Below, in pieces: positions 2,975 through 45,011 of a stretch of 47,862 nucleotides of DNA. The stretch is from a virus. The stretch spans positions 1-47,862 of IMG/VR virus record IMGVR_UViG_3300020445_000897, one strand, 5' to 3'. A program made the position numbers and the translations under genes. Numbering within the stretch: the first letter of the stretch is position 1; each line of letters starts with the position of its first letter. The notes under the pieces were generated by a model that did no database searches, was not told the origin of the DNA, and saw only the letters and a program-made list of their open reading frames with translations.

Positions 2975-5900
2975 TATACAGCAAGAGCAATCGCTCTAAG
3001 TTCTTTGATAATAGGTGAATACGCTTGGTTGGATGACACAAATACGATCTTAATTTGATATTGGTCAAAACTTAATCCCGAAACTTCATATTCAAATTCA
3101 TTGAATATTTCAGATTCTGTTGCAGCAGGTACACTTGCAGCAGTAGATGGGAAGAATTCATATCCAAGTTTAGAAATCGGATCTGTTGAACCAACTGGAC
3201 GCACTCTATATAGTACCTTAATTTCACTGCCTGGCGGACGGAATCCCGCAAAGTAAACCTTAATAGATCCAGATGGATTAGTTAGATTTGCAACACGAGA
3301 AATGTATACACCATCATGCTCATCTCCAACAGCAAGTTTAGCAGTGTTAGGATCACTAGGATTATTAATCCTATTTGAAACACATGTGATAGACATTCTA
3401 TCAGTATCAATCACTGGAGAAATATTACCCTTATTACTTGTAAGAGTTAAGTCCATTCTAAAGGACTTAGCACCACTAAGTTCAGACGATTCGTTGATAC
3501 TAGAACAAATCAACTGAGGAGAAGTTAAAGGATTATCTTCACTTAATGTAATATCACTAAACACTCCATCATTCGAGAATGAAGATTGGAGTATGGCAGA
3601 TCCATCATTGATAGAAGTACCAGTTATAGTATTAATTCTTGCAGTAACATCTGTGCCAGGAAGGAGCATTCTCTCAATTTGAGGAACTAATGTTTCATAC
3701 TGTATGTTCTGTGTTGCAGTAGCAACAGGACCACCAGATACAATACCTAATCTAGCAATAGATGTAGTTGACAATTCATAGTAATCAAGAGTTGGATTCA
3801 GAATACCAGTATGTGTCTTATTAATCTCTGTTAGAGGTATACCATCTAAGTTGTAGCACTCTACTCTAGTTTCATCAGCATGGGATCTAGCAGTTGTACC
3901 TCCTAAACCTCTTTCTTGGACAGTAATTGTCTTACCATCACTACTGATTGCATTGTATGAAACAATCTCAGAGTAAGTCTGACTTAGACCAACAGAAGTA
4001 TTCCATATCCTTATATAACCAACGTTAGTTGCACTAACTGATTGACCATTAATAATCTTATGGAATGCACTAGCATCAGAAACTGATATAGAAGTATCAC
4101 TAGCAGATATAGCAGCAGTTAATGTTGTAGGTGAAACTTCAGATTCCACATCTGATACAGTAACATTGTTTGCAACATCATGCATACCATGATTACTGTG
4201 TAGAACCCTAACCTTCCTTTGAGTTGTAGCAAAGGTTGGTGTTGACTGAGGATATGAATTTTGGATTGATCCAGTCTTAACTGCGTCTCCAGTAGGAGTA
4301 AATGCAGTAGATGATGCAGCTGTAGTTGCCTGACCATTAGTACCACCACCTGCTCCATCACCAGTGATTGCCTCACTATTTTGGAAGTCTAAAGAACAAT
4401 ACTTCAATGCCAATGTGGTTGCATTAGTGACAGTTGTAATTTCAGCAGTAGCACCAGATGTACCACCTGTAATTACGTCTCCGACTGCATAACCAGATGT
4501 GGATGCAACTGTTAATGTACCAAGTGTTTTGGATGATACCAGTCTATTAGTTGTAGAAGTACCTTGTGCAAACGTACCAGTAATGTCATTTAATACCAGT
4601 AGTACACCATTTACTGCACCAGTAATTTGTGTAATTGTACCTTGTGCAAGAGTTGTCTTCTGATAAACTCTAGCACCAACAGTGTATGGAGTATTTGCCA
4701 ATACATCATTTGTTAAGATCTGTATTTCAGGAACGAATGTCTGAATAGGATCATTTCTAAGAGCTAGAACTCCACCATTACCTTCTGCAAGAGCAATGTT
4801 ATTAAGTACAACCTTACTGTTGGCAGCAGTATTAAATTCTGCTCTGTAAATAGAGAACTTAAGATCTTCATACTGGTCTGCAGTCCATGTAGATGCGTTC
4901 TGTGATTTGAATAGAACACCAGCATAAGGCTGTTCTGATATAGTTCTGTCTCCAGTTATATCAATTTCTCCCATCCTAGAGATCCAAATCTTATATGAGT
5001 TAGAGTCAGAAAGTAGAACAAAGCAATGTTCAACTGATTGAGGTATATAAACTGGTGCTTTAAATGTAAACTTAGTAGCAACAGCACCTGTTTCAGATGT
5101 TTGTATTACAGAAGGTTCTAATGTAACATCAGAGAATGGTAGAATACTTGTTGTTGGATATCCATTTTCCATTGTTCTAATTTGCATAGAAACAGGAATG
5201 TTTGTATCCTTAGTATTAAAGTAAACTTCTACAGATGTTATGAATACACCACCTGCCTCATCAGCAATAAAGGATTGAGCAAGAGGGTCATACCAACCAA
5301 TCTGTCTTGTTTCAGTTCTAATAGTGTTAAAGTTTCTTGTCTGGTTAACAGTATCACGAACCACCTCAGCATTACGAACAGCAAGGACGTTTTCACGTAC
5401 TCTGTTTAGAGTACCCTTTGCTTCGTATTCTGCTTCAGCAGATGAATCAACTGCACCTGCAAGTCTTGAATCATTCTCGTCTGTAGTTAAACGTAAAGTT
5501 CTTGTACCAGTTCTCCAACGTGGATTACTATCTACATTTGTTCTTGGTATAAAGAATGAAGATTGCATCTTACCAAAACGGTCAGAAACAAGTCTACGAT
5601 CTTTAACAACTGCTTTAGCACCAGATGTACCAATCAGAACTTCACCAACTTGTACATTACCAAAGTAAGCACCAGATGCTTGTTGAGCACTTGCATCAGC
5701 ATCAATATTCAAGAATGCTGTAGTAGATGCATAAGATGATGGTAACTCAGTATCATCATATGGGTTATACTTATAAACGTCATTAGGAGCAGCAACCCTA
5801 AATCTACATCCAGATGATTGTCCTCTAACAGTTTCACCAATCACAAACGGTGTGGAGTTTGTTCTTGCGTCTGTAGAAGGGTTCTTAATAAGTTCAACTA

Positions 5901-38200: not shown

Positions 38201-40955
38201 AATATGAACCTGTATCAGTAAGGCTGGTTTGTTGAGCATCAACAATACCAACAACATTCATCACTACTTCTTGAGAAGTACCTTTATTAATATAAACCTT
38301 GAAGTTAGAAGCAACTTCTGTAGCAGAATCCCAATCTTCAACAACACCATTGAATGAACGAGTACACTCAATGAACTGGTTAAGTGATTTTTCCTTATAT
38401 TGTACAACTTCTGCACCAGTACCAGTACCGATTACAAACTCTCCGTTTCTTTCTGGCCAACCAATAGTAGAGTCAACTGTAATAATTGAGTCAGTTGCAC
38501 TTAATGGTTCCGCTAGTTTTGTCTTATATGGTACAGTAAATGTGCCAGTAATAGTTTCTTCTGATAAAACAAGTTCAAATATCTCTGTTTCAGAAGTTTT
38601 AATAGAAATATAGTTTTCAACCAGTGCGGATGCTGCAGCAACGTTAGCATCAGCAATATCTGCCTCTTGTACTAAAAGACCATCTTGAATATCAGTAGCA
38701 AGACCACTTACTAAAGTAGCACGCAAAATAGTGTCTATAGACCAAGTTGCATCAGATGGTTTAATAATCTGATCTTTTGGATAAGATATACTTACTGATT
38801 CTCCGTAGAGTAGTTTGAATAAGTAAGCAATACTAAATGAAGTTCCTTTAGAACTATAAAAATCTTTTACAGTCTTAATTGCTGTACGGACATCGATCTT
38901 AGAGTAATCGAGTTCTGGTACATCAGGTAAGAACTGTTCTGTATACTTGTCTAATAAACGCTTGACAAATAGAGAATCAAGGCATTTTATAGGAGTATCA
39001 ACGATTGCAGCGGCTGCAGTTGTATCATTAGAGAATATTGCGTTGCCATCTTCACTATATGATGTAATTGCACTAGCAGAACGTGCACATCCTACAAATT
39101 GTGCTTTATTATATCCGCTTCCACTCTGTAATACCTTAAATCCAGTAACTTCGTTTACACCAATATCTGCTGACGCTTCTGCAGAAGGCGGTGCCTGAAT
39201 AACAACAGTAGGAGGTGCAGCTGCAGAATATCCACTACCGAACGCACTTACGTTAATATCAGTGATTTTACCATTGAATATAGACGCACTAGCAATAGCA
39301 CCAGTACCACCAGCATAATTTCCTTGTCCATCTACACGCTTATCAACGATATAAACAGAAGGAACTTCATCATATCCGCTACCACCATCCAATAAATCAA
39401 TTCTAATAACACGACCATCACCGTCAACAACGGTTTCTAGTATCTGTGCACCAACAGGATCAACGATTGATACTCTAGGTACGGTCTCATAACCTTGTCC
39501 AGCGTTTAATGTAGTAATACTTGCGATAGTTCCATCGGCAGCAAGTACAGTTTGGAAGGATGCTCTAATACCATTTGTACCAGTTGGTTCATCAACGTAT
39601 ATTGAAGGAGGAGTTGTATATCCAAATCCTGTATCAACTATAGTTAAACCACCACTGATAGATCCAGCATTAAGCGTTGGAGTGGCAACTGTAGCACCTC
39701 CAGGCTGCCTGAAAGTAATTCTAGGTGTAAATGTATACCCAGATCCAGATCCAGTCAAATTAATAGCACTGACACTACCGTTTGTAACGGTTGCTTTCAT
39801 AGTTGCTATTGAAGAACCATCCTTAGTTGGTTCTTGTATCTGCACAACAGGAGGGTTGCTATCACTATAACCCTTACCACCTTTCAATAATGTAATAGAC
39901 TTGACACCATTAACTAAGGCAGTTGCGGAACCACCCTTACCAACATCAGTGTTAATAGACACTTTTGGTGGGTATTCAAACCTATATCCCGTGCCATTTG
40001 CGTTAGTTGAGATACTTGTTAGTTCTCCAGAGTCATTTACACGGGCATAACCCTTTGCTCCACTACCAAATGACGGAACTGGTGCCTCAATAGAGTATAA
40101 TGATAGGAATCTTCCGTTAGTAGGTGCGGTAAGGAAGATGAAATCATCACCATCGATGAAGAAATCTACTTTAGGTGTTAATAAACGCTTATCATAAACC
40201 GCAATGACATATTCATCTACAATCGGTTCATATGGTGCACCACTTCTAGTAAGTGCAAAACTCCTCTTGGAATCACCAAATGAATTAGAAATATCATCAA
40301 TCGCTACAATATTACTTTCTACAAAACCATTTAAGTATGTAATGTAAGTTGTTGTACTATCATCTGTTGCAGTTTTAGTTCTAGGAGCAACAGCGAAGTT
40401 AATATTAGTTCCACTAATAGTATAATCTGTACCAGGTGTTAATACTTCACCATATACACTAACAATTAAGTGCTGTGGGGAAGGTGGAGCAACAGGATTG
40501 TCTTGTGAAATTAATGGGAATAATCTATCAGACCCATTAAAGGAGTTCATAGGAGAAGCAAGGTTAACCCACTTTAACTTAACCTGTTCATATGAAACAC
40601 CTGGACTTAGAGCAATGTTAGGTGAGTTAGTTGTACTCTCATAGTAGATGACCTCAGTACCTATGAGAATAGAACCATTAGACGCTAAAAAAGAGTCTAC
40701 AGACTCTACAGTAATCTTATCGGACGTAGTTGTGATTGCTTCCACCAACTTAGTAGCACCATCAAGAATCCCGATGTCCAATCGATCAATATCGAGATAA
40801 TTGAGGAATCCATTAAGTATATTCTGACCTAAACCTGTTTTTTCCTGAGACTTATAGTAGTACTCAATGAATTTTGTAAAGAGGGGGTAGTCAGACTGGA
40901 TAAATTCGGGACTCTGGGCTGTTACTGCCTGTGATACCTTGTTAATATTTGTCAT
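17280..40955 (-). CDS. Giant multidomain baseplate/virion protein in the gp7 position (7,891 aa)
   Basis: One uninterrupted frame. The ATG at 40955 overlaps the gp6 stop as TGATG; a TTG one codon earlier is less likely. N-terminal residues (SPEFIQSDYPLFTKFIEYYY, then LDIDRLDIGILDGATKLVE) match the conserved N-terminus of very large cyanomyovirus structural proteins after gp6, where T4 has gp7 (1,032 aa). Approximate map: 320-625, 1138-1342 and 3088-3258, GSGYT repeats; 1422-1552, YHYH-like; 1612-1623, EF-hand loop; 1835-2212, propeller-like; 2218-2438 and 4070-4258, LamG-like; 4312-6337, 18 YPR-motif units; 4412-4512 and 6338-6832, helical modules; 6922-7132, lectin-like jelly roll; 7585-7745, NGxxQxPG hairpins; C-terminus acidic. 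Probably a wedge scaffold carrying exposed adhesive arms. Confidence 0.9.
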   Translation of the reverse strand: MTNINKVSQAVTAQSPEFIQSDYPLFTKFIEYYYKSQEKTGLGQNILNGFLNYLDIDRLDIGILDGATKLVEAITTTSDKITVESVDSFLASNGSILIGTEVIYYESTTNSPNIALSPGVSYEQVKLKWVNLASPMNSFNGSDRLFPLISQDNPVAPPSPQHLIVSVYGEVLTPGTDYTISGTNINFAVAPRTKTATDDSTTTYITYLNGFVESNIVAIDDISNSFGDSKRSFALTRSGAPYEPIVDEYVIAVYDKRLLTPKVDFFIDGDDFIFLTAPTNGRFLSLYSIEAPVPSFGSGAKGYARVNDSGELTSISTNANGTGYRFEYPPKVSINTDVGKGGSATALVNGVKSITLLKGGKGYSDSNPPVVQIQEPTKDGSSIATMKATVTNGSVSAINLTGSGSGYTFTPRITFRQPGGATVATPTLNAGSISGGLTIVDTGFGYTTPPSIYVDEPTGTNGIRASFQTVLAADGTIASITTLNAGQGYETVPRVSIVDPVGAQILETVVDGDGRVIRIDLLDGGSGYDEVPSVYIVDKRVDGQGNYAGGTGAIASASIFNGKITDINVSAFGSGYSAAAPPTVVIQAPPSAEASADIGVNEVTGFKVLQSGSGYNKAQFVGCARSASAITSYSEDGNAIFSNDTTAAAAIVDTPIKCLDSLFVKRLLDKYTEQFLPDVPELDYSKIDVRTAIKTVKDFYSSKGTSFSIAYLFKLLYGESVSISYPKDQIIKPSDATWSIDTILRATLVSGLATDIQDGLLVQEADIADANVAAASALVENYISIKTSETEIFELVLSEETITGTFTVPYKTKLAEPLSATDSIITVDSTIGWPERNGEFVIGTGTGAEVVQYKEKSLNQFIECTRSFNGVVEDWDSATEVASNFKVYINKGTSQEVVMNVVGIVDAQQTSLTDTGSYYLPGDKLTVSKLGGTGISPLLTTWLYNVKKLISVTSITYGGVNDQSATVTCANNHGLLVGDQVTIYGANPIIYNGTFLVTSRDSETVFQYQLVQPGTTIPQGNILVSVDLNKGKSNNTAILNAVGPYTTNIQNSFFNDNYTYVAATGIPNYAIGPFPGSALLPGNQRKLNRFPAVPTTISTKNAIVSGSIGTWVNGVSVWSYKSTTTKTFGAVTGIDISNSGKDYDAASPPVITIDGGGGSGAAATVTVDGSISEITVTAGGSGYTSSPLVSIVGGDGSGAAATAIITKGAVSRILINQGGSGYTSQPSITIVGGGGAGAAGTASVRGPIQSVNISSGGASYTSIPTVSLSSGSGAVAQPIVSNGRIISIAIISAGSGYTTAPEVSIQGVGFGAIARATIDTDGENAGRVTSITIVNRGIGYVQGTTLINLTSVGQDASFAPSVFKWTYNLQATATLDAAKGGVFEGYNNQYGGEYAHLSNPQRLRYILGDNLQEITAGNITEQDSQLTHSPIIGWAFDGNPIYGPYGYTDPTDQSSSITRLRTSYRLKTNLVYDGQSNPYPERTAGPLLNAEPAGNFVEDYEYVFNLGDLDQYNGRFCKTPDYPQGRYVYFVTIDASEAGVPEFPYVLGPNYNSVVDPWNLSTSATQQNIPIGVVRYRDPYENVDIDVERTPNASTNALTTENGEILLFDAEDTNRDGVISADEQDLTNLGQLFEESPLQLFDYFPKVKFDSKVDIEVETTTKFEDASVTGFTVENPGISYQVNDRLVFDNTDTDGSGVSARVSRIKGETVEAYTFESISGNNFGVLTTVEPHNLGVGDSVFIDYTPVMDNTNKSFVVRQYQGIEEIQITQTGSGYNEDIPPTIIIDSDSGKDGILQAVVTSVGSIDTVNILNSGSGYTSNPRVILSHPQIYKKADYYLSFINNNNYVQVNDVFVNTNKEVFICGKTKDASANVVAFVSKLSATGVKEWEKTLESSDGLNYTEFNRLYVDGDAVWVVGINKPNSSLLNAYNPDIILCKYTQAANGLSATLNFQKAYAGISGSTRGDNVTVIKKYSDTRFLIGGYTNTNSVSPDDAFIASIDTSGNFAIKRKFASANKHERITDIHIDGTDVYFSMETGASLNAADTDVAVGKCQIGTNAITVDWINGYSNTLYSLRDVSLCMDEFQELYITATCRLKSDDTTRDSVWVGKINASGTLIWNYRYVAPGREVTAIRKSVIDIFGDLNIGFTRDDNTNEYRTVDTLKIGYNGVIKNHTTTEFDADNIEGLYAHTLDVDNSGDIHVFGQTAWNRNEFVVPFTSSALTDTTAHYTAALTSTGDSFTYDAANGWGKILGAQTASPTSWVNTNIKFTAAELGTKLAGDFTLEFFIFKDSTNTNKFSQPKETLCAIGDGTTATGGLHLFYDQSSAGPSGPLTLTVTNNTTTINAAGSSLTSTQTNLYADNTWQAIALVKSGNTFTVYVNGISVATGTIANTALGAKDLHFGNIPGADGTTGSFRSNEQGQFHIDHLRLRNRAVTPSVPSDITALPTAGAFGLTFDWGDDAWFADHLSRYDYIDYAGFGIKSDKDADATRLGDKGKQTNSGVSFVRTAVTPVVGSSLTMSTAGYALGDAGYQSLDFDDTTTTMNQDTETLTYVQDVWSSRTATVPSPGSQKLKVTAVVKNRYYFKVTPTIKIDNIQELTINQAFNFSVGSKLVLKNTGGTFVNSGYIIRKDTTNNKLYLAVNNNTWTNDLNTGRLTTEQFNEQSTYGITGDIPNDINEIQGYTFATVNNTTPGTFDIDLDDYNLDGLNYNAGGGQNLDSYAVFKPYSDDDYSVRIDEVAGGSAYIVGSVINIPSGNITYNAGYSTAQITGLTGVLKITLVTNLTKILQVSAVANSDEVYVITDTSHYLSAGDMIYVDGNPSQTVGSTVYDEYDGAFAVNSVVSPLEFTYKLKQAAITDPATTAANVNIFVKSPTLKMYYGHQYLFDLSHSSMAGGNLSFAKDNLYKLEYSFNSIERVGTPGVTGGGQPTPTVKLKVDTGVVTNISYYFDPSRTGDDSPVVAGSYLDVVNSPYKGTFEISAIAGATITRGADIIKFPLLHEPEGAATIAQASYSTSSVKAVGSISDIRIVNPGGFYTKLPIVSSITSSRQIERIQINDPGTEYAVGQYDSVPIAGNGEGGFVQIIVSDGTDADGNVIPGQISAVNVTSPGKGYTTASIDINSIEGILGAGLTGSGAELVVVIPAFGTGASIFTKGDKVGKIKKLKNNNFGYDYPHDYTLRPEITFPINAQLTSTSILDSITITDPGTGYSQAPAVIITGGGGSGAVAEATIKNGRLDVIIVKDPGAGYSSTPTVSLRSSFNYVVNLDLGLLQFAFPHGIQNGAAVTVSVTDTGDGADFPLAAGATGRLNASTTYYAIAGTANSLEGDQLKLAITAANAELGDALSFVNAGTGRQSVLTESFGGAATANVVTSTFLEGELVYQGDSLTSATATGYVSENSGWQIGPRVLKIVDYTGEFSENQRITGVISKSSGLISDLKIAKGVLEIGSITKTTGQFIDDVGKPSEIIQKIQDSYYYQDFSYAVKSSTSISEWKEILIKNVHPASFKVFGELNLNEYGYIPNKETFFQLTKSVELAQEAIVPNIQNFALVEPVYSEFNNTEVLFRQKRLTSSENILTSVVQRIDDVSSLFDGERISFPLTVNGDNVVANANQLMIVLNGVVQTPGTSFSIQQDSIVFSEAPQPPASVKYVNVVINQIQTVAMEFTNISGIFPNVSNDLVGTSSNARLTTTSVVGNTVNGFIVGSDSFIVGELVTVSATGFSANVASVTNVVNQGLFVFNEKVTNFQGDTAQVEAINLQKGQETPLAQLRYTIGLSTTSVEVVKYKTDNSAADEAVPAGTFTTTKNYQFGSEIFRVDTITQNNDSTTLGITRAQNGTTATAQQEDVPLYGTDITITNNLTLSKTTGTYQSTPGLFDIQLNDYIIAAQSGVVAQITATSTYQDPVTQEFIGQVNISPGSSFFGLLFNRITSTSYPNVVLDDISKSQVNIVNYTDNDTPFNENFPANEQINNYVIPYDNASGALVENETIRNYKIEYGNSSGDFAASEEGKVRKITFKDKKGSGFFVAGQVIRTPDTKAEVVGYSQARQTVYVGKIGRSKASGEDYHDIIFHNSAQIDTAQKKFGTASLLLDSATTDYVNIATSSEFAWTTNAFTIEFWVRADASSLSGTATLFDQRANATEVAIRIYLEAGQIRYNVNGSDLVTSGATTLNNNVWYHVAVQRSSTTSKILLNGAEVGTGTDSSNFPQKPIRIGADYAGANGFKGHIDELRVSPTARYSTLPFTAATGIHQGDANAKLLIHFDGPDGVNYTEDWSGGESFTAGEEFNNDSILASTRAIGKHTYDGGTSSNAITITAGSVQKDVTAATYDHTTGVLVLTIGSHSYTTSDTLTIGANKLSFTCSLDNNATSHTYPRTTDPAYGTALAITAVTGTTVTVNVGIASKGFVGNSHRYLDAADLLVSNIDFIKNETVHIMKEVYTQHTVKGSEADCEDDVRDVVNSLVDDLRNGSNSHMWTAASYYVDRTTNPIQIQASTVEADVSMTVFAYEVMDKMVRFIVNNVPWEIQGDHGFIQKFDATLTESDYGGLVQKTPTNADYDPVTGELTLTVSSHGLAAPRTITATGSTYTATTGVLTIVSNGHNLVQGDRIKFKPNSIVFNCTSDGNTVNQSYPRSDDPAGQGWLEVTYIDANNFSVNVGKSPTVSYTPTAGVYDAETGFLTFNIGDNDLKPGSKYTPTGVAYTASSGAMTITIDNNFDVNNADYDGDTGDLELWIGPHSLDIGTQVKIANNSLFFKCSMDEERAIHAYPRSGDPVSGQDLEITKITDKSIVVNVGATPIVNYTPTGAAFTPATGEMVLTIGTHDIAVGDSIKLIDGSIEFSCGAGAGNHSYPRTLTDDISATGATYNGTTGLLTITSAGHGLTAPNKITPTGASYNASTGIMRITKSTHNYKVGDRVKLEDGAITFQCTMDNNATNHAYPRPSDPISGQWVSIVAVPDNNNFDIPVGASALGNYTHSFVSATTDGVKKCNDVVKLEDGAITFKCTQDGGATNHAYPRSTDPISGKWMNVEEVAGNDFTIQVLDSIPSTNTTTHTYVTSTTNGIKKKRDPFQGTAITVESVVANTSITINVGISSNTTTHTFQSAVSGAVISGGNYAHTFVSAATGAVIGNHGFHIGDRVMFDRNSLVFTCDMDGNATEHAYPRTTDPKYNTWLPISSVTTNTFDVNVGASPLVTFTPTGATYNPTSGELVLTIGSHSLSVGENIEILANGLTFSCTQGSLGNGSYPRAAGAGTNSGADYAYNTSLEILAVGATTITVNVNGGRGPITNLTTHTFVSATSGCIVSGGNYTHTFKYALPNSMTRAGETLRIVKDGISFECDQDNYKTIHSYPRGDDPGYNTSLPIYNNGIEMTAENASYNPATGEMTITIIGHGMTTTDQIRIENHSLGFTCTRDGNKKVASYPRLTDPYQGRWLRITAVTENTFTVNVGFDALVGNQYVHTFVSAVPHGIVKRDNTITVNIGKSPVVDYTPTDASYNATTGALELTIGAHSLPAPTTHTVTDANYVPSTGIMTLTIAGHGFSNGEKIKLADDSLTFTCTHGSGNKTYPRSTDPISKKWVPISNVTTNTFDVQVLAEIPSTNVTPHTFQSATSGGLSKANSTVKLAPNSLKMTCDQDSDATVHTYPRAEQSRHTASAGTLYNPSTGIMTITTASAHGFAVGTPIRFEPNSLKFTCTKDQDQTEHTYPRATDPATNRWFFVESVPSSTTFKVQVLDTIPSTNITNHTFVSAEKGGIVEGDPLVAQAIPVDAVTGTTITINTLDGYTASNTTTHAWVGVNYNQYTPSAATYTPTTGDLELTIPTTNFTPTAVSYTPASGVMVLTIGSHTLSVGDTIRIDANSLTFTCDFNSDGDTTEKTYPRATGASTFSGADYAYNRDLTIIDEAATTITVNVNGDATTITDTTTHNFVAGSENTNCIKVGHQMKNGEKIKITNNSLNFRCNMGDDAGLHSYPRATDPVNNRWLEISNVDYNKFTVNVGKSPLKNYTPSDIDYNPTSGIMKMTIGRHDLRKGQSIKIATSSLKFRCAHDDYATDHSYPRTTVNTITPTTAAYDTGNGRITITVNGHGLGNGDWVKLADNALTFSCAFGGASGSAAEKSYPRSTDPISGKWLRVENAQTNTFDILVLDTLPSTNTDAHSFVSAVSGGVSVKKDSSYDAPVEITEVTDTTISVKVVKKTPSTNTTNHIFVAATANAITAGGNYTHTFVKADTNSITRAMLYTGGGYNHRFVSGLANAITTGGDYVHTFQSADTNGIVCAGDAIFIAPNSLTFKCAQDNFATNHTYPRLTDPSYNQLLPITKASTNTFTVNVNPSPINDQYAHTFVSSTSDCITKSQFSLADCSDVTSTANNLVTILTDTLNSAVLASPVDHLATITKQEPKAEFVGGTIDSYREVGFPVSYHDGTSDLIYTAQIDADTQYRFRDAAELIRANRGVIVDKAAFDMLTRYPDLALDMPRNANGTSTDGTLRCKTDLGLIVDAIANDIEDGGNEKSVEAANFYLGNNNELLHIRLQVWQSIYAHDRIGVYVKQAITGDLTYDNTDDIIVGDWDITDNSGSGNCANVATAVDTLITTINDMIAPTGNDYNIGGNRLYFNRKYIAEECTGYTSTEFNYTLNAITYNAFSYPGAAGETTCQRDLKLIIESICSDLQTGGNNSTIAAMEKYLDAALQIGQVEEELLATAFAINKIKEIGGYVLNNVQYDFNSGEQSPNYAAQYSNTDAVRDTETPTDIASVIDRFEYLVDVARDIIAPAKSTGRSAGKNILFNYNYYKEELTQQVNTQFGAGSWTYDSFLTNIINDMCHDIATTDITDKKDAREITLSSVYNSFQVGEIVYSSNGAYSEVLEWDDDTQFLVVGPFTGPTWVANNTLTGQTSNAVAVISAIGPKYDWYNTPCNVQTLAHARTLGSNITGEVPGTNLYSNPEALASDWTSTETTFTNNAIASPDLNVTAEKVIPSTNTGLHTISRNYSLTAYDTFDDGTIKWDTSGQKFDEGAAGTNATQTFTFSMFVKAAGYTSLRFQMSLDEGTAAVQRIFFDLNLTAGTIGTVFTPQGGMTNDAAGVVPLGNGWFRCYITTTFSFGFTTLQNKIIVNNAAGAQSYAGNGTDGIYAWGAKLTKTALDPYQSGDGTIFYSDATYNINNYTFDILEDYISQALQNGLTQPSPNAGFYKYFDATAFADYNERSIHRLVRYQLNILRNQIKTGTYFTQININNGVSLPTKTYGTRTLPIGVSGGLNNADFMYGTSSDSYGELESLSENSGKVVQVYQRFRIDGDITDGPFTMNEVVAKQGAPSITGVVYGFYEDANYKYLDVKVTAGPWAITDNVVGATNSTTAQISAIEDRIHVIDLKGTFEDNIPFKGYDSGKTAQPAGSFLKNEAAVLDNTGGTLTVDTETLLGSFELNSVVYPESSRQYLDVIKYAGLDIGVGSKIASVGYIRLQVSIISNLNVFTVGNRLYKVVSGIQDPNTYAIITEVDLDNNYIYAIEYQGNPFQNGDVIGDYGLSSNFPVGYATITTKVTTAGAASAVVQGIKTVGTLKRLYLSDINGTFSTRDAIKSIDGYKSVISIKGDLKARVKRSFKGFDGTQTTFNLSQNNGTSYLPDPEGHLLIFINGILQPPGATNAYTAFSNQIQFTESPELGASFTGFYVGKLRQLDDISFDFDSLRQSFNLKRNNVFYSLTLTEGVQSSTIRPENNIIVSLNGVIQEPGIGFEIVGSRIIFSEIPRVGSTFVAFSYVGSEADVDAAEIVPPVEPGDFIDIQGETEAREVAVIESSNSLITFDYLGSVFGQDASASAALTSGFIKSVQVTAGGSSYTTRPTVRVDSISGFEGNIRALVGVAGVEISNPGSNYQNPDIAVETTVPDDWTAPDLSSYGEEEVDPETPINN
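17285..17292 (-). promoter_or_regulatory. T4-type late promoter inside the 3' end of the giant gene
   Basis: The minus strand reads CATAAATA within CCCATAAATAACTAA. These bases also encode the last residues of the giant protein (Pro-Ile-Asn-Asn-stop). It is 22 nt upstream of the 408-aa ATG and has the same CATAAATAA core as two other late promoters here. Confidence 0.65.
21945..28020 (-). repeat. Array of 18 YPR-motif repeats within the giant protein
   Basis: Units of roughly 80-110 residues follow one plan: YTPTxATYNPxTGxMxLTI, a GHxLxxGDxIKI loop, LTFTC, D..ATxHxYPRxTDP, then WLxIxxV..NTFxVNVG and THTFVSA. I count 18 units with a recognisable YPR. The first (near 27,850) is separated from the other 17 by a helical module. 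Conservation reaches the DNA level: 22599-22625 and 25902-25928 are identical over 27 nt, and 22611-22636 and 24261-24286 over 26 nt. This suggests expansion or homogenisation by recombination. Confidence 0.85.
31180..31690 (-). repeat. GSGYT repeats, third cluster in the giant protein
   Basis: Units SPGKGYTTASIDIN, DPGTGYSQAPAVIITGGGG and DPGAGYSSTPTVSL, each with an alanine-rich GSGAVAEATI-type strand between. Confidence 0.7.
36930..37540 (-). repeat. GSGYT repeats, second cluster in the giant protein
   Basis: Six or more units of about 36-40 residues: a turn such as [20 protein letters not shown], a short AAATAII strand, then GAVSRILINQ. The regular period suggests a stacked beta-solenoid-like arm. 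Confidence 0.8.
39080..39990 (-). repeat. GSGYT repeats, first cluster in the giant protein
   Basis: Units NGTGYRFEYPPKVSI, KGGKGYSDSNPPVVQI, GSGSGYTFTPRITF, DTGFGYTTPPSIYV, NAGQGYETVPRVSI, DGGSGYDEVPSVYI, AFGSGYSAAAPPTVV and QSGSGYNKAQF follow each other at 35-50 residue spacing. Confidence 0.8.
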
Positions 40956-43024
40956 CAATAACCACTAGAAGATGTATTACTTGTACTTGTTGTCGTACTT
41001 GCAGTTGAAGTCGAACTTGACGAAGAGGTTCCAACTGCTGTTACTGAAACCAGAGTTGGTGTCTGATCAAACACTGTTGGTGTCAAACTATTTAGTGGGA
41101 TTGTAGGAGGTGGTGCAGTTCCTACAGCATTAATAGTTACTTCTGGACTAACAATATTGATAATTGTTCCTGGAGTTGATGCAGGAATTGTCGAAGAGTT
41201 AGCAGGAATGAATTGAACTGGTAGTGATAAACCTGTTGGTAATAGTGCTGGATCGGTTATAATACCTGTTCCTGAAGAAGAATCAGTGATTGAAATACCT
41301 GATGTAGCAATGTTTGTACCAGTACCTATAATATTGATAGGACCAAAGGCAATTTCGCCTGTGTCATAGTTAACTGTACCTGCCTTAGTATTTGTATATA
41401 CCTTTCTAGTACCTGTGTTATAGAACGTTCTAAGTGCTCCATAACCATCATCTTCAAACTGCTGGTCAACACCAGGTCTATCAGCACTTCTAAACTTACC
41501 AGATAGTAGAATTGGTTCCTTTGAACCGTCAGTTGCCAATGTAACCTTACTAGGAGCAGAGTTATAGAGGGATGAACCAGTAGAAATCGTATAAGTGTTA
41601 GTTTGATTAGTAACTGGTGTAACATAACGCAATAACGTTGTTTGGAGTGAAACGTCAGTTATGCAACTGTTTGACAGTGTAATTGCTTTTTCGTAGGACT
41701 GTGATCTAAATGTAGAGTTAAAGTTGTTGATTTGTGTTTGAGTTGCCCATTGACTAATGGCATTTTGAACGTCCGTCTTAATTGTAGACGTGTTTGATCC
41801 GCAACCTGTATCATAGAGCACAAATACCTTAGTATAGATGTATAAATTCTCTGGATCTATGACCACTGGGTCGATAGATGCCATCGCATACTTTCTTAAG
41901 TCTGCAGCAATGGACTTTTTAGTAGCATCGTTTAGTGTTGCACCTGTTTGAGTCTTAACAGCAATATAAACTTTTCCGTAAACAGGAGGTGTTAATGAGT
42001 CTCCACCATAAGCAACGACTGCATCTGCGTTAGGATAAACCTTTTTAGTCAAAATTGAGTAATCTTGAGCAGTTACAGCACGGTATTGTGAGGAATAATA
42101 CCTTGGAGCATTATATTTAATGGATTCTATTGTCTCAGCGTTAAATCCACCTGTGGAATTTGAGTTAATTGTTAGCGTTGTATTGCTAGAAGAGTACTCT
42201 GACCCTAAATTATCACTTAATTGACCTATGAAGTTGAACTTACTTACGTCATTTGCAGCAGGTCCAGAGGTTACCAAGTACTCAAGTACGATAACTTCCC
42301 CATCTTTTAGTGCTCTTCCAACTGAATCATCACCAAATTTGATCTCATACCGCATATCTTCCCCTTCAGAGAGGAAATAGACCCTAGATGTAGCGGTTAG
42401 GTTAGTAACAGTGTCCACTAGGTTGTATAGATCACTTGTAGTAGAGGATTCGTTTGCCTTTACTTTAACTGCAAGAGTACCTATATCCGCATCTTCCGAA
42501 GGAACTTTATAGTTCTGTGATGCAAATGTATTAACAATGTAGTTGAAGTTGACTATAGATCCTTCTTTTACCAATAAATTACTAAATTCTGCTATTCCTG
42601 TAGTTGCATTTACCTCAGCAGTAGTGTTTGCAGTTAAGTTCCAGATATAATTTCCACCAGATGCAACAGCACCCTTTGCCAAAGTAACAGTACTAGGATA
42701 TGATCCACTCGTTTGTGTAGTCTGTACGACCAGTTTAAGGTCTGCTGTAGACGCTAAAATGGATTTAGGTACATAATTAAGTAATTTTGCTATATTAACG
42801 ACATTATCACGAACTGTGGAAGAGGGTAGAAACGCCTCGTTCATTGACATATTCGCATTAAATGAGGTATAATACGTATTATATGCAAGAATATCGATTA
42901 AGTAGTTCAAAGTAGCACCTTCAAACTCATAATCACTGAACTCTGTCCTAGTTCGTAGGTATGACTTGATAGATGCTTTTATATCATCAAAATCTAGTGC
43001 TGTTAAATTATTCGGGGTTGACAT
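40955..43024 (-). CDS. gp6: Baseplate wedge protein gp6 (689 aa)
   Basis: The N-terminus (LDFDDIKASIKSYLRTRTEF, then TLNYLIDILAYNTYYTSFNA) and the region around residue 315 (YYSSQYRAVTAQDYSILTKK) are hallmarks of T4-like gp6 and the BaseplateJ family. gp6 dimers link neighbouring wedges to form the baseplate's inner ring. T4 gp6 is 660 aa. Here the C-terminal 65 residues are an added Pro-rich then Ser/Thr-rich tail (GTSSSSSTSTASTTTS) that looks disordered or repeat-derived. The ATG overlaps the gp25 stop as TAATG, and the gp6 stop overlaps the giant gene's ATG, so gp25, gp6 and the giant protein are translationally coupled. Confidence 0.95.
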   Translation of the reverse strand: MSTPNNLTALDFDDIKASIKSYLRTRTEFSDYEFEGATLNYLIDILAYNTYYTSFNANMSMNEAFLPSSTVRDNVVNIAKLLNYVPKSILASTADLKLVVQTTQTSGSYPSTVTLAKGAVASGGNYIWNLTANTTAEVNATTGIAEFSNLLVKEGSIVNFNYIVNTFASQNYKVPSEDADIGTLAVKVKANESSTTSDLYNLVDTVTNLTATSRVYFLSEGEDMRYEIKFGDDSVGRALKDGEVIVLEYLVTSGPAANDVSKFNFIGQLSDNLGSEYSSSNTTLTINSNSTGGFNAETIESIKYNAPRYYSSQYRAVTAQDYSILTKKVYPNADAVVAYGGDSLTPPVYGKVYIAVKTQTGATLNDATKKSIAADLRKYAMASIDPVVIDPENLYIYTKVFVLYDTGCGSNTSTIKTDVQNAISQWATQTQINNFNSTFRSQSYEKAITLSNSCITDVSLQTTLLRYVTPVTNQTNTYTISTGSSLYNSAPSKVTLATDGSKEPILLSGKFRSADRPGVDQQFEDDGYGALRTFYNTGTRKVYTNTKAGTVNYDTGEIAFGPINIIGTGTNIATSGISITDSSSGTGIITDPALLPTGLSLPVQFIPANSSTIPASTPGTIINIVSPEVTINAVGTAPPPTIPLNSLTPTVFDQTPTLVSVTAVGTSSSSSTSTASTTTSTSNTSSSGY

Positions 43025-43443
43025 TATTCAGGTCTCTGTAATACGAACGCAACTGTTTCTACTAATGGTACTCCAACTATTCTATAGTTAATAGTAACAT
43101 TGAAAGCATTATCACCTGGTAGATCATTTACATCTACCTCCAATAGTTCAATTCTAGGTTCAAATTGTCCAACAGTATTTATGATGTCATCTTGAATTGC
43201 GTCAGCAACCATAGGATCCATCGGTTCAAATAATAATTCCCTTACACCAGACCCAATCTCAGGTCGAAACAGTTTTTCTCCTGGTGAAGTTTGTACCAAA
43301 TTCATTAATGACTGTTTTATGGCATTCTCATTCTTAAGGACGGCAACATCCTTCGTAAAAGGATTGGCTTTAAAACCTATACCTACGTCATTGAAGAATC
43401 TCGACAGGTTATCTGCCTTTCCACTAATCTCTTTAAATGCCAT
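43024..43443 (-). CDS. gp25: Baseplate wedge protein gp25 (139 aa)
   Basis: The GPW/gp25 family pattern is complete: NENAIKQSLMNLVQTSPGEK near residue 38, LFRPEIGSGVRELLFEP at about 58-75, and a C-terminal FEPRIELLEVDV ... YRIVG strand pair. T4 gp25 is 132 aa, close to this length. It is an inner-baseplate wedge component that contacts gp6 and gp53 and helps start sheath polymerisation. The ATG is 1 nt after the SET gene's stop (TATAAAATGG), and its stop overlaps the gp6 ATG. The late promoter at 43754-43761 probably serves SET, gp25, gp6 and the genes beyond. Confidence 0.96.
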   Translation of the reverse strand: MAFKEISGKADNLSRFFNDVGIGFKANPFTKDVAVLKNENAIKQSLMNLVQTSPGEKLFRPEIGSGVRELLFEPMDPMVADAIQDDIINTVGQFEPRIELLEVDVNDLPGDNAFNVTINYRIVGVPLVETVAFVLQRPE

Positions 43444-43444
43444 T

Positions 43445-43729
43445 TTATACCTTATAGAACGTATAATTCAAAAATAGTTCCTCATTAGGCATTATTGGTT
43501 TTATAACAACAACGTACCACTTGTTTTTGACTTGATACTTATCACAATTTGGATCGTCAGAGTGGTTTATAAACCCTCCCAAGGGGGTTCTATAGAGTCC
43601 ATCGTCTAAAACTATATGTGACGTACCTAATTCAGTACCAACTTCGATATATTTGTTAGTAAATATACCTTGACCAGCAATAGGACTGTCCTTTATGAAC
43701 AGTCCGTCTGGTAACGCTTTATAAGACAC
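43445..43729 (-). CDS. Minimal SET-domain protein methyltransferase (94 aa)
   Basis: The whole protein is a SET core. It has G19-Q20-G21 (SAM-binding GxG), I54-N55-H56-S57 followed by P60-N61-C62 (pseudoknot motif), and E83-E84-L85-F86-L87-N88-Y89 with the catalytic-type Tyr. SET enzymes move a methyl group from S-adenosylmethionine to lysine side chains. At 94 aa it is even shorter than algal-virus vSET (about 119 aa). The best start is GTG at 43729: an in-frame TAG lies just upstream and the ATG nearby is out of frame. A late promoter lies 25 nt upstream, and gp25 starts 1 nt downstream. A substrate is not evident; the neighbouring Lys/Arg-rich 49-mer or a virion protein is possible. Confidence 0.85.
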   Translation of the reverse strand: MSYKALPDGLFIKDSPIAGQGIFTNKYIEVGTELGTSHIVLDDGLYRTPLGGFINHSDDPNCDKYQVKNKWYVVVIKPIMPNEELFLNYTFYKV

Positions 43730-43753
43730 CTTCGCATACTATATCTCTATCTT

Positions 43754-43761
43754 TATTTATC
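43754..43761 (-). promoter_or_regulatory. T4-type late promoter before SET and gp25
   Basis: The minus strand reads GATAAATA inside AGATAAATAAAG, the NATAAATA late form. It starts at the stop codon of the 49-aa gene and lies 25 nt before the SET gene's GTG. Confidence 0.65.
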
Positions 43762-43910
43762 TAGTTTCCTTGACCTCTATAACGCTTCTTCGCTCTGTTA
43801 CGACTCGTAGCACTCAATTTGGTGTTTTGTCCCCGCCCTTGTCTTGTCTTTTTAGGTTGTGCTGGTACATATGTTCCAGTTCCCCATGCCCCTGAACTTG
43901 CCTTTGCCAT
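43761..43910 (-). CDS. Small very basic peptide (49 aa), conserved in cyanomyoviruses
   Basis: ATG at 43910, stop TAG at 43763-43761. The sequence starts MAKASSGAWGTGTYVPAQ and continues with a Lys/Arg/Gln-rich tail (KKTRQGRGQNTK, then SRNRAKKRYRGQGN). I recall nearly the same small basic protein from other T4-like cyanophages near gp25, function unknown. It has no hydrophobic core and about a quarter Lys plus Arg, suggesting a disordered, nucleic-acid- or acid-surface-binding peptide. It sits directly before the late promoter and the SET methyltransferase. Confidence 0.85.
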   Translation of the reverse strand: MAKASSGAWGTGTYVPAQPKKTRQGRGQNTKLSATSRNRAKKRYRGQGN

Positions 43911-43940
43911 TTGTGGATCGCCCCGCTAGGATTTTTTCTA

Positions 43941-44177
43941 TTATAGCAGTCTTTGCTCTATTTTGTCCAATCTTTCGTAAATATCCTTAATTATCTCAAT
44001 AAAATGGACATATTCGCCTTTTTTCTCGTTTTTTACGAAAACTTTGTCAAATGTGGGTAGTTCTTGGAGGTTTTTCTCTATATTCTCCACTTTTTCGCCT
44101 AATTGTTGTAGGCACATGTTAATAACGTCGTGTGCCTCTGTATTATCTTGCCAAGGGTCAATCTTTTTGTTTGACAT
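43941..44177 (-). CDS. Hypothetical protein with terminal coiled coils (78 aa)
   Basis: No family recognised. From the ATG at 44177 (MSNKKIDPWQDNTEAHDVIN) there is a helix of about residues 16-42 (INMCLQQLGEKVENIEKNL) and a C-terminal helix (FIEIIKDIYERLDKIEQRLL), both with heptads. An upstream TTG would add three residues; ATG is preferred. It overlaps the end of the 87-aa gene by 20 nt. It may be a small structural or assembly helper. Confidence 0.8.
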   Translation of the reverse strand: MSNKKIDPWQDNTEAHDVINMCLQQLGEKVENIEKNLQELPTFDKVFVKNEKKGEYVHFIEIIKDIYERLDKIEQRLL

Positions 44178-44644: not shown

Positions 44645-44853
44645 AGTAAGTCCTCAAATTCATCTAAAAATGTTCTACGTTGCTCCCACGTCATACCTGA
44701 TGTAGAACCCTTACAAGGATTTATACATCTTTTATCATTCGCCTCGTTACAGACTAGACCTGCTAGATCGTGCGGATCCCCATCCTTACCTGTACCCCAA
44801 TATAAGTGAAGTCCTATCCATGTTGCATTGCATCTAGGACAGACTTTAATCAT
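44641..44853 (-). CDS. Small Cys-rich, zinc-ribbon-like protein (70 aa)
   Basis: C5-P-R-C8 at the N-terminus is followed by H28, C35, C43 and C47, a layout suitable for binding one or two zinc ions. The central stretch LYWGTGKDGDPHDLAGLVCN is one I recall as highly conserved in T4-like cyanophage hypothetical proteins. The C-terminus is a helix (WEQRRTFLDEFEDLL). A nucleic-acid or protein-contact role is plausible, but no function is known to me. ATGA overlaps with both neighbours show tight coupling. Confidence 0.82.
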   Translation of the reverse strand: MIKVCPRCNATWIGLHLYWGTGKDGDPHDLAGLVCNEANDKRCINPCKGSTSGMTWEQRRTFLDEFEDLL

Positions 44854-45011
44854 TCTTCACTCTTTTTAAGTCTAAATTTTCCATCTAATACGTCATATTC
44901 TAGTTCAGTGTCTGAAGACCACCCTAGTTCTTCTATCACATCGTATGGAATTGTAAGAATGAGATCCCCATAATCGTCTTCGTCTAAACGTGTTGTGAAT
45001 CTCTTGCTCAT
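44850..45011 (-). CDS. AbrB-like small protein (53 aa)
   Basis: ATG at 45011, stop overlapping the next gene's ATG (ATGA). The sequence has RLDEDDYGDLILTIPYDVIE followed by ELGWSSDTELEYDVLDGKF: a beta strand, the IPxxVxxxLGWxxxxxLE pattern and a final strand. This is the layout of an AbrB/MazE swapped-hairpin DNA-binding domain, which usually acts as a dimer. Position among late-region genes suggests a small transcription modulator or an antitoxin-like remnant. The length suits a single domain. Confidence 0.75.
   Translation of the reverse strand: MSKRFTTRLDEDDYGDLILTIPYDVIEELGWSSDTELEYDVLDGKFRLKKSEE

Follow-up and report, generated by a model that had tools for sequence, protein, structure and literature searches.

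The window (the whole 47,862-nt stretch of viral DNA, IMG/VR record IMGVR_UViG_3300020445_000897) encodes a 94-aa SET-domain protein that we propose is a working minimal protein-lysine methyltransferase, carried by a marine cyanophage (a cyanomyovirus) as an accessory gene of the gp46-gp25 hot spot, expressed late, and acting in trans. We put the probability of this reading at roughly 0.6. The SET gene would be transcribed late as a SET-gp25 unit, its product would move methyl groups from SAM to the lysines of proteins, and the target would be a protein that is made or present late in infection and is reached in trans.

The gene lies on the minus strand, where the order is the 49-aa basic peptide, an ATAAATA motif, the SET gene, gp25, and a gp6-like gene (Table 1). 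The two open reading frames and the intervening motif are as the initial annotation had described them, with the SET gene after the peptide. That annotation did not mention that gp25 begins just 1 nt past the SET stop codon. Two other genes in the window are worth recording. A single ORF of 7892 aa (17280-40958, about 24 kb) comes after gp6, and the syntenic place in S-SSM5 is occupied by T4-GC969, which is described as a virion structural protein by Sullivan et al. (2010, PMC3037559). Also, a 53-aa protein (44850-45011) has a sub-threshold match to the MazE/AbrB type (PF04014, 6e-4; phrog_661).

Table 1. Features around the SET gene, in window coordinates.
Feature	Position	Strand	Evidence
Sigma-70-like promoter (TGGACA, 18 nt, TATAAT with TG) 5' of the 49-aa peptide gene; differs from the late motif 5' of SET	43940..43969	-	
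49-aa basic, probably disordered peptide, phrog_516; near-universal in cyanomyoviruses, 5' of gp25, not a specific SET partner	43761..43910	-	
T4-type late-promoter motif ATAAATA, 24 nt 5' of the SET start; comparison with SET-less relatives marks it as the late promoter that serves gp25 there	43754..43760	-	
SET-domain protein, 94 aa, GTG start, predicted SAM-dependent protein-lysine methyltransferase	43445..43729	-	Pfam PF00856, 3e-10; phrog_28741, 4e-36; AlphaFold2 pLDDT 92; Foldseek top hit vSET (3kma)
gp25 baseplate wedge protein	43024..43443	-	Pfam PF04965, 1e-16; phrog_261, 6e-58
gp6-like baseplate wedge gene, 3' of gp25, conserved context	40955..43024	-	Syntenic gp6/baseplate wedge annotation in P-RSM6, S-SSM5, and S-RSM4

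The assignment to the SET family is secure. Its score with the Pfam SET model is 40.9 bits (curated cut-off 22.4), all 61 of 61 family members match that model as well, and phrog_28741, a family without an assigned function, matches over the full length. The protein contains each of the motifs GQGIF, FINHSDDPNC, and EELFLNY. An AlphaFold2 model built from a 61-sequence alignment has a mean pLDDT of 92.2 and a pTM of 0.81, and when this model is compared to the PDB with Foldseek, vSET ranks first (TM 0.74 by query, 24% identity, E = 4e-6). There are 201 PDB chains at E ≤ 0.001, and each of the best 50 listed is a SET- or PR-domain entry or a complex with such a domain. A sequence-only search of the PDB also gives vSET of the chlorovirus PBCV-1 as the best match. 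The claim that this is a SET-fold protein, most like vSET and with intact catalytic motifs, is thus borne out.

We also aligned 135 relatives of the SET protein from viral contigs, phage records, and bacterial genomes. All 135 keep the second glycine of GxG, the asparagine and histidine of NHS, the asparagine of PN, and the glutamate of the last motif, and 133 keep the first glycine of GxG. The catalytic tyrosine (Tyr89 in the window protein), whose loss in homologues was the concern raised by the initial annotation, is present in 134 of 135, and the one exception stops short of that position. The family has invariants of its own as well, namely His38 and Arg47, and after these comes a PLGGF that hardly varies (49-53 in window numbering). 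Judging from these motifs and from the predicted structure, the protein looks intact and is probably a working minimal protein-lysine methyltransferase, although methyl transfer is something that we infer. Full-text searches of a literature library for a description of a cyanophage SET protein found none.

Why is the gene next to gp25? To describe its context, we used the best 80 of at least 592 SET relatives in IMG/VR, so the counts hold for close relatives of the window protein. gp25 is present on the fetched stretch in 58 of these 80, and in 55 of the 58 it lies directly after SET, with a gap of −1 to 50 nt (a stop/start overlap in 7 loci and the 1-nt gap in the window's lineage). The peptide gene is upstream in most of the SET-gp25 loci, often with other genes intervening. 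We also drew 80 IMG/VR loci by the peptide, irrespective of SET. In this peptide-centred sample, gp25 is downstream on the same strand in 77 loci and SET is present in 4. The interval between peptide and gp25 is empty in 18 of the 77 and otherwise holds varied genes, including ferredoxin, 2OG-Fe(II) oxygenases, and a family of unknown function of up to about 250 aa, which most often fills the slot directly 5' of gp25 (50/77). (This last family, which is one ORF at 4289-5047 of locus L196 and 64 related ORFs, is a single-linkage group and may be mixed; a Pfam scan of an example ORF gave no match.) The small genes between gp46 and gp25 form one of the four hot spots of cyanomyoviruses (Sullivan et al., 2010, PMC3037559). 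Because this published hot spot has varied occupants, the adjacency of SET to gp25 has an ordinary explanation. Judged by sequence, SET is one of the accessory genes in the variable gp46-gp25 hot spot, and its normal place is directly 5' of gp25.

Another sample, centred on gp25, started from a SET-linked gp25; its frequency of SET (31/80) is biased and we did not use it as a denominator. As a side observation, 14 of 72 distinct SET loci (from L007-L086) have a 2OG-Fe(II) oxygenase gene no more than 2 kb from SET, as compared to 5 of 74 gp25 loci that lack SET (uncorrected P = 0.027). This is weak, and we do not claim a tie between SET and these oxygenases.

The placement of the late-promoter motif suggests how the gene is expressed. 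ATAAATA occurs 5 times in the window, as compared to 21 times expected in shuffles; all five are on the coding strand, and four of them sit 21-39 nt 5' of gene starts. (The roughly fourfold depletion across the window looks as if the motif were selected against outside of promoters.) In SET-less loci, the late motif precedes gp25 in 50 of 68 cases, against a background of 2.3%. In the eight loci where SET abuts gp25, one of which encodes a relative with 99% identity to the window protein, the motif (ATAAATA in five, CTAAATA in three) is always found about 22-24 nt 5' of SET and is absent 5' of gp25; it occurs in 0.4% of random 14-nt stretches. In 21 SET loci with a gap between SET and gp25, the motif is 5' of gp25 instead. 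So, in the window's lineage, a motif lies 5' of SET at the promoter distance of a T4-type late gene, and the simplest reading of these sequences is that SET was inserted between the late promoter of gp25 and gp25 itself. A gene in that position would probably be late and co-expressed with gp25, which applies to the abutting lineage and is based on the motif.

The initial annotation had proposed late timing for the locus, and this seems likely for SET but does not extend to the peptide. None of 123 peptide genes (0/73 in SET-less loci and 0/50 in SET loci) has the late motif upstream. Instead, the window's peptide gene is preceded by a sigma-70-like promoter, and TATAAT is enriched 5' of the peptide family's genes (36/122, as compared to a background of about 4%).

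The SET family (phrog_28741) is common in marine phages and is also found in some marine bacteria. Its contexts include the position after nrdB in P-SSM7, the neighbourhood of primase and a high-light-inducible gene (hli), a pelagiphage, Flavobacteriaceae, and SAR86. In a tree of 95 members, which has few alignment columns and many open forks, the window's lineage (via the near-identical L007) falls in a cyanophage clade that is dominated by the gp25 context; nested within this clade are members that lie beside nrdB-talC, primase-hli, or apparent surface-sugar genes. Long contigs of Flavobacteriaceae, SAR86, and Porticoccaceae also carry relatives, and so do 11 of 249 genomes sampled from a Flavobacteriaceae family group. 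A host-derived auxiliary metabolic gene should have a close homologue on Prochlorococcus or Synechococcus chromosomes, and this is not what we found: just 2 of 251 sampled Synechococcus-family genomes contain a homologue, and one of these is on a MAG contig with phage-like genes. Hence the gene does not seem to have been acquired recently from the host. From its sequence relationships, it is a member of a mobile marine family with representatives in several phage contexts and on some bacterial chromosomes. Two of the bacterial cases are unusual. In a Synechococcus-family genome, a 212-aa ORF (L300, 1477-2115) apparently contains two tandem SET units with altered motifs, and in a Flavobacteriaceae MAG (L093, 2830-8144) the SET gene lies inside what appears, judged by sequence, to be an arginine/proline biosynthesis cluster.

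Because P-SSM7, a pelagiphage, and bacterial chromosomes have members of the family that are not next to gp25, a substrate reached in trans is likelier than one encoded by a neighbour. Our leading candidate for the target is a protein of the host or a phage protein that is widely shared, with a chance that we would place a little short of even. A point against a hot-spot gene that acts in trans is that the constant adjacency to gp25 could reflect a real functional tie. In particular, SET might methylate gp25 or another baseplate or tail protein of the same late transcript and so tune the assembly or stability of the baseplate. The close spacing of the two genes and the placement of the late promoter favour this, and several lysines of gp25 are commoner in SET-linked gp25s (for example, columns 58 and 69; P ~ 1e-4 or lower, uncorrected for multiple tests or for relatedness). 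We nevertheless consider it unlikely: the slot next to gp25 is a known hot spot that is also used by ferredoxin, 2OG oxygenases, and the family of unknown function, the last often directly 5' of gp25; P-SSM7-type phages, primase-hli phages, a pelagiphage, and bacteria carry members of the same SET family in contexts other than that of gp25; and most gp25s, including those of relatives, work without SET. A slightly different form of the idea, in which a late phage lysine methyltransferase is translated in step with gp25 and modifies a baseplate protein or some other virion protein, seems to us rather unlikely as well.

SET enzymes are mainly known for writing marks on chromatin. Like vSET (A612L of PBCV-1), which is a histone H3K27 methyltransferase, the cyanophage protein is a small stand-alone viral SET domain with GxG, NHS..PN, and a C-terminal catalytic tyrosine motif. 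Its host, unlike that of vSET, is a bacterium and has no nucleosomal histones. vSET is packaged and has H3K27 as its target (PMC7019647), whereas the cyanophage protein is not known to share either feature. The viral structure library also includes SET-annotated proteins from uncultured Caudovirales phages (such as A0A6J5PTS6), which are larger than the window protein or more distant. The cyanophage protein is also shorter than vSET (94 instead of 119 aa), with about 18 fewer residues in the region between GxG and NHS (SET-I), and this counts against a working enzyme. Conceivably, the fold has been kept by a protein that is no methyltransferase in practice and serves, for instance, as a SAM- or peptide-binding inhibitor. 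The very short SET-I and the lack of a separate post-SET region would fit, but the catalytic and cofactor motifs are strongly conserved over 135 diverse members, which makes this improbable.

Finally, the initial annotation viewed the 49-aa peptide as a histone-tail-like candidate substrate, with gp25 or other late proteins as alternatives, and took the co-occurrence of the two genes across cyanophages as a check. The peptide is basic (6 Lys, 6 Arg, no Asp or Glu; computed pI of about 12), and its AlphaFold2 model has low confidence (pLDDT 60) and almost no secondary structure, which fits with disorder, so the peptide is probably disordered. It matches phrog_516 (E = 1e-20), to which no function is assigned, and a search of the PDB for a homologue found none up to E = 10. 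Also, the peptide and SET genes overlap by 4 nt in 11 IMG/VR SET loci and in P-RSM6 and AG-345-P14, so in those loci they can be co-translated. However, co-occurrence did not hold in the way that would count for a pair. Among 50,697 phage records, we found the peptide in 447, all from cyanophages or marine single-cell viruses, and SET in 6 (two of P-RSM6, two of P-SSM7, a single-cell virus contig, and pelagiphage Kolga). S-SSM5 has the peptide directly 5' of gp25 and lacks SET. In P-SSM7, SET is between nrdB and talC at 164 kb while the peptide gene is near 51 kb (L185), or about 113 kb away on the linear record. Conversely, the pelagiphage and bacteria have SET without the peptide. The peptide's two invariant lysines are present in 64/64 SET-linked and 102/102 SET-less distinct peptides, and a comparison of the two groups for SET-specific lysines in the peptide found none. 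A substrate gene that is consistently linked to its enzyme, as expected for a vSET-like histone methyltransferase, is therefore not what we see, and once the peptide-centred sample had given SET in 4 of 80 loci, we dropped co-occurrence as evidence for an enzyme-substrate pair. With SET at so few peptide loci, the two genes far apart in P-SSM7, SET found without the peptide, no late motif 5' of the peptide genes, and the same lysines kept with or without SET, it is very improbable that SET methylates the adjacent peptide as vSET does the histone tail. The peptide gene seems to belong to the cyanomyovirus core and to have a role of its own, and its link to SET looks accidental.

The nearest precedent for the peptide as a substrate comes from a prokaryotic SET protein whose target is associated with DNA: Goe1-SET of the archaeon Methanosarcina mazei, which is described as methylating the chromatin protein MC1-alpha (Manzur and Zhou, 2005, as cited in PMC10117894). 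The likeness is by that description. Goe1-SET has a nucleoid protein as its substrate, whereas no tie is seen between the cyanophage SET protein and the 49-aa peptide.

If the target of the SET protein were a baseplate or other virion protein after all, this would put phage tail assembly or infectivity under post-translational control of the SET type. Isolates that carry the gene exist (P-RSM6 and P-SSM7). More broadly, a very small, widespread, and conserved SET family in marine phages and bacteria that lack nucleosomes is a compact model for the roles of SET proteins outside of chromatin.
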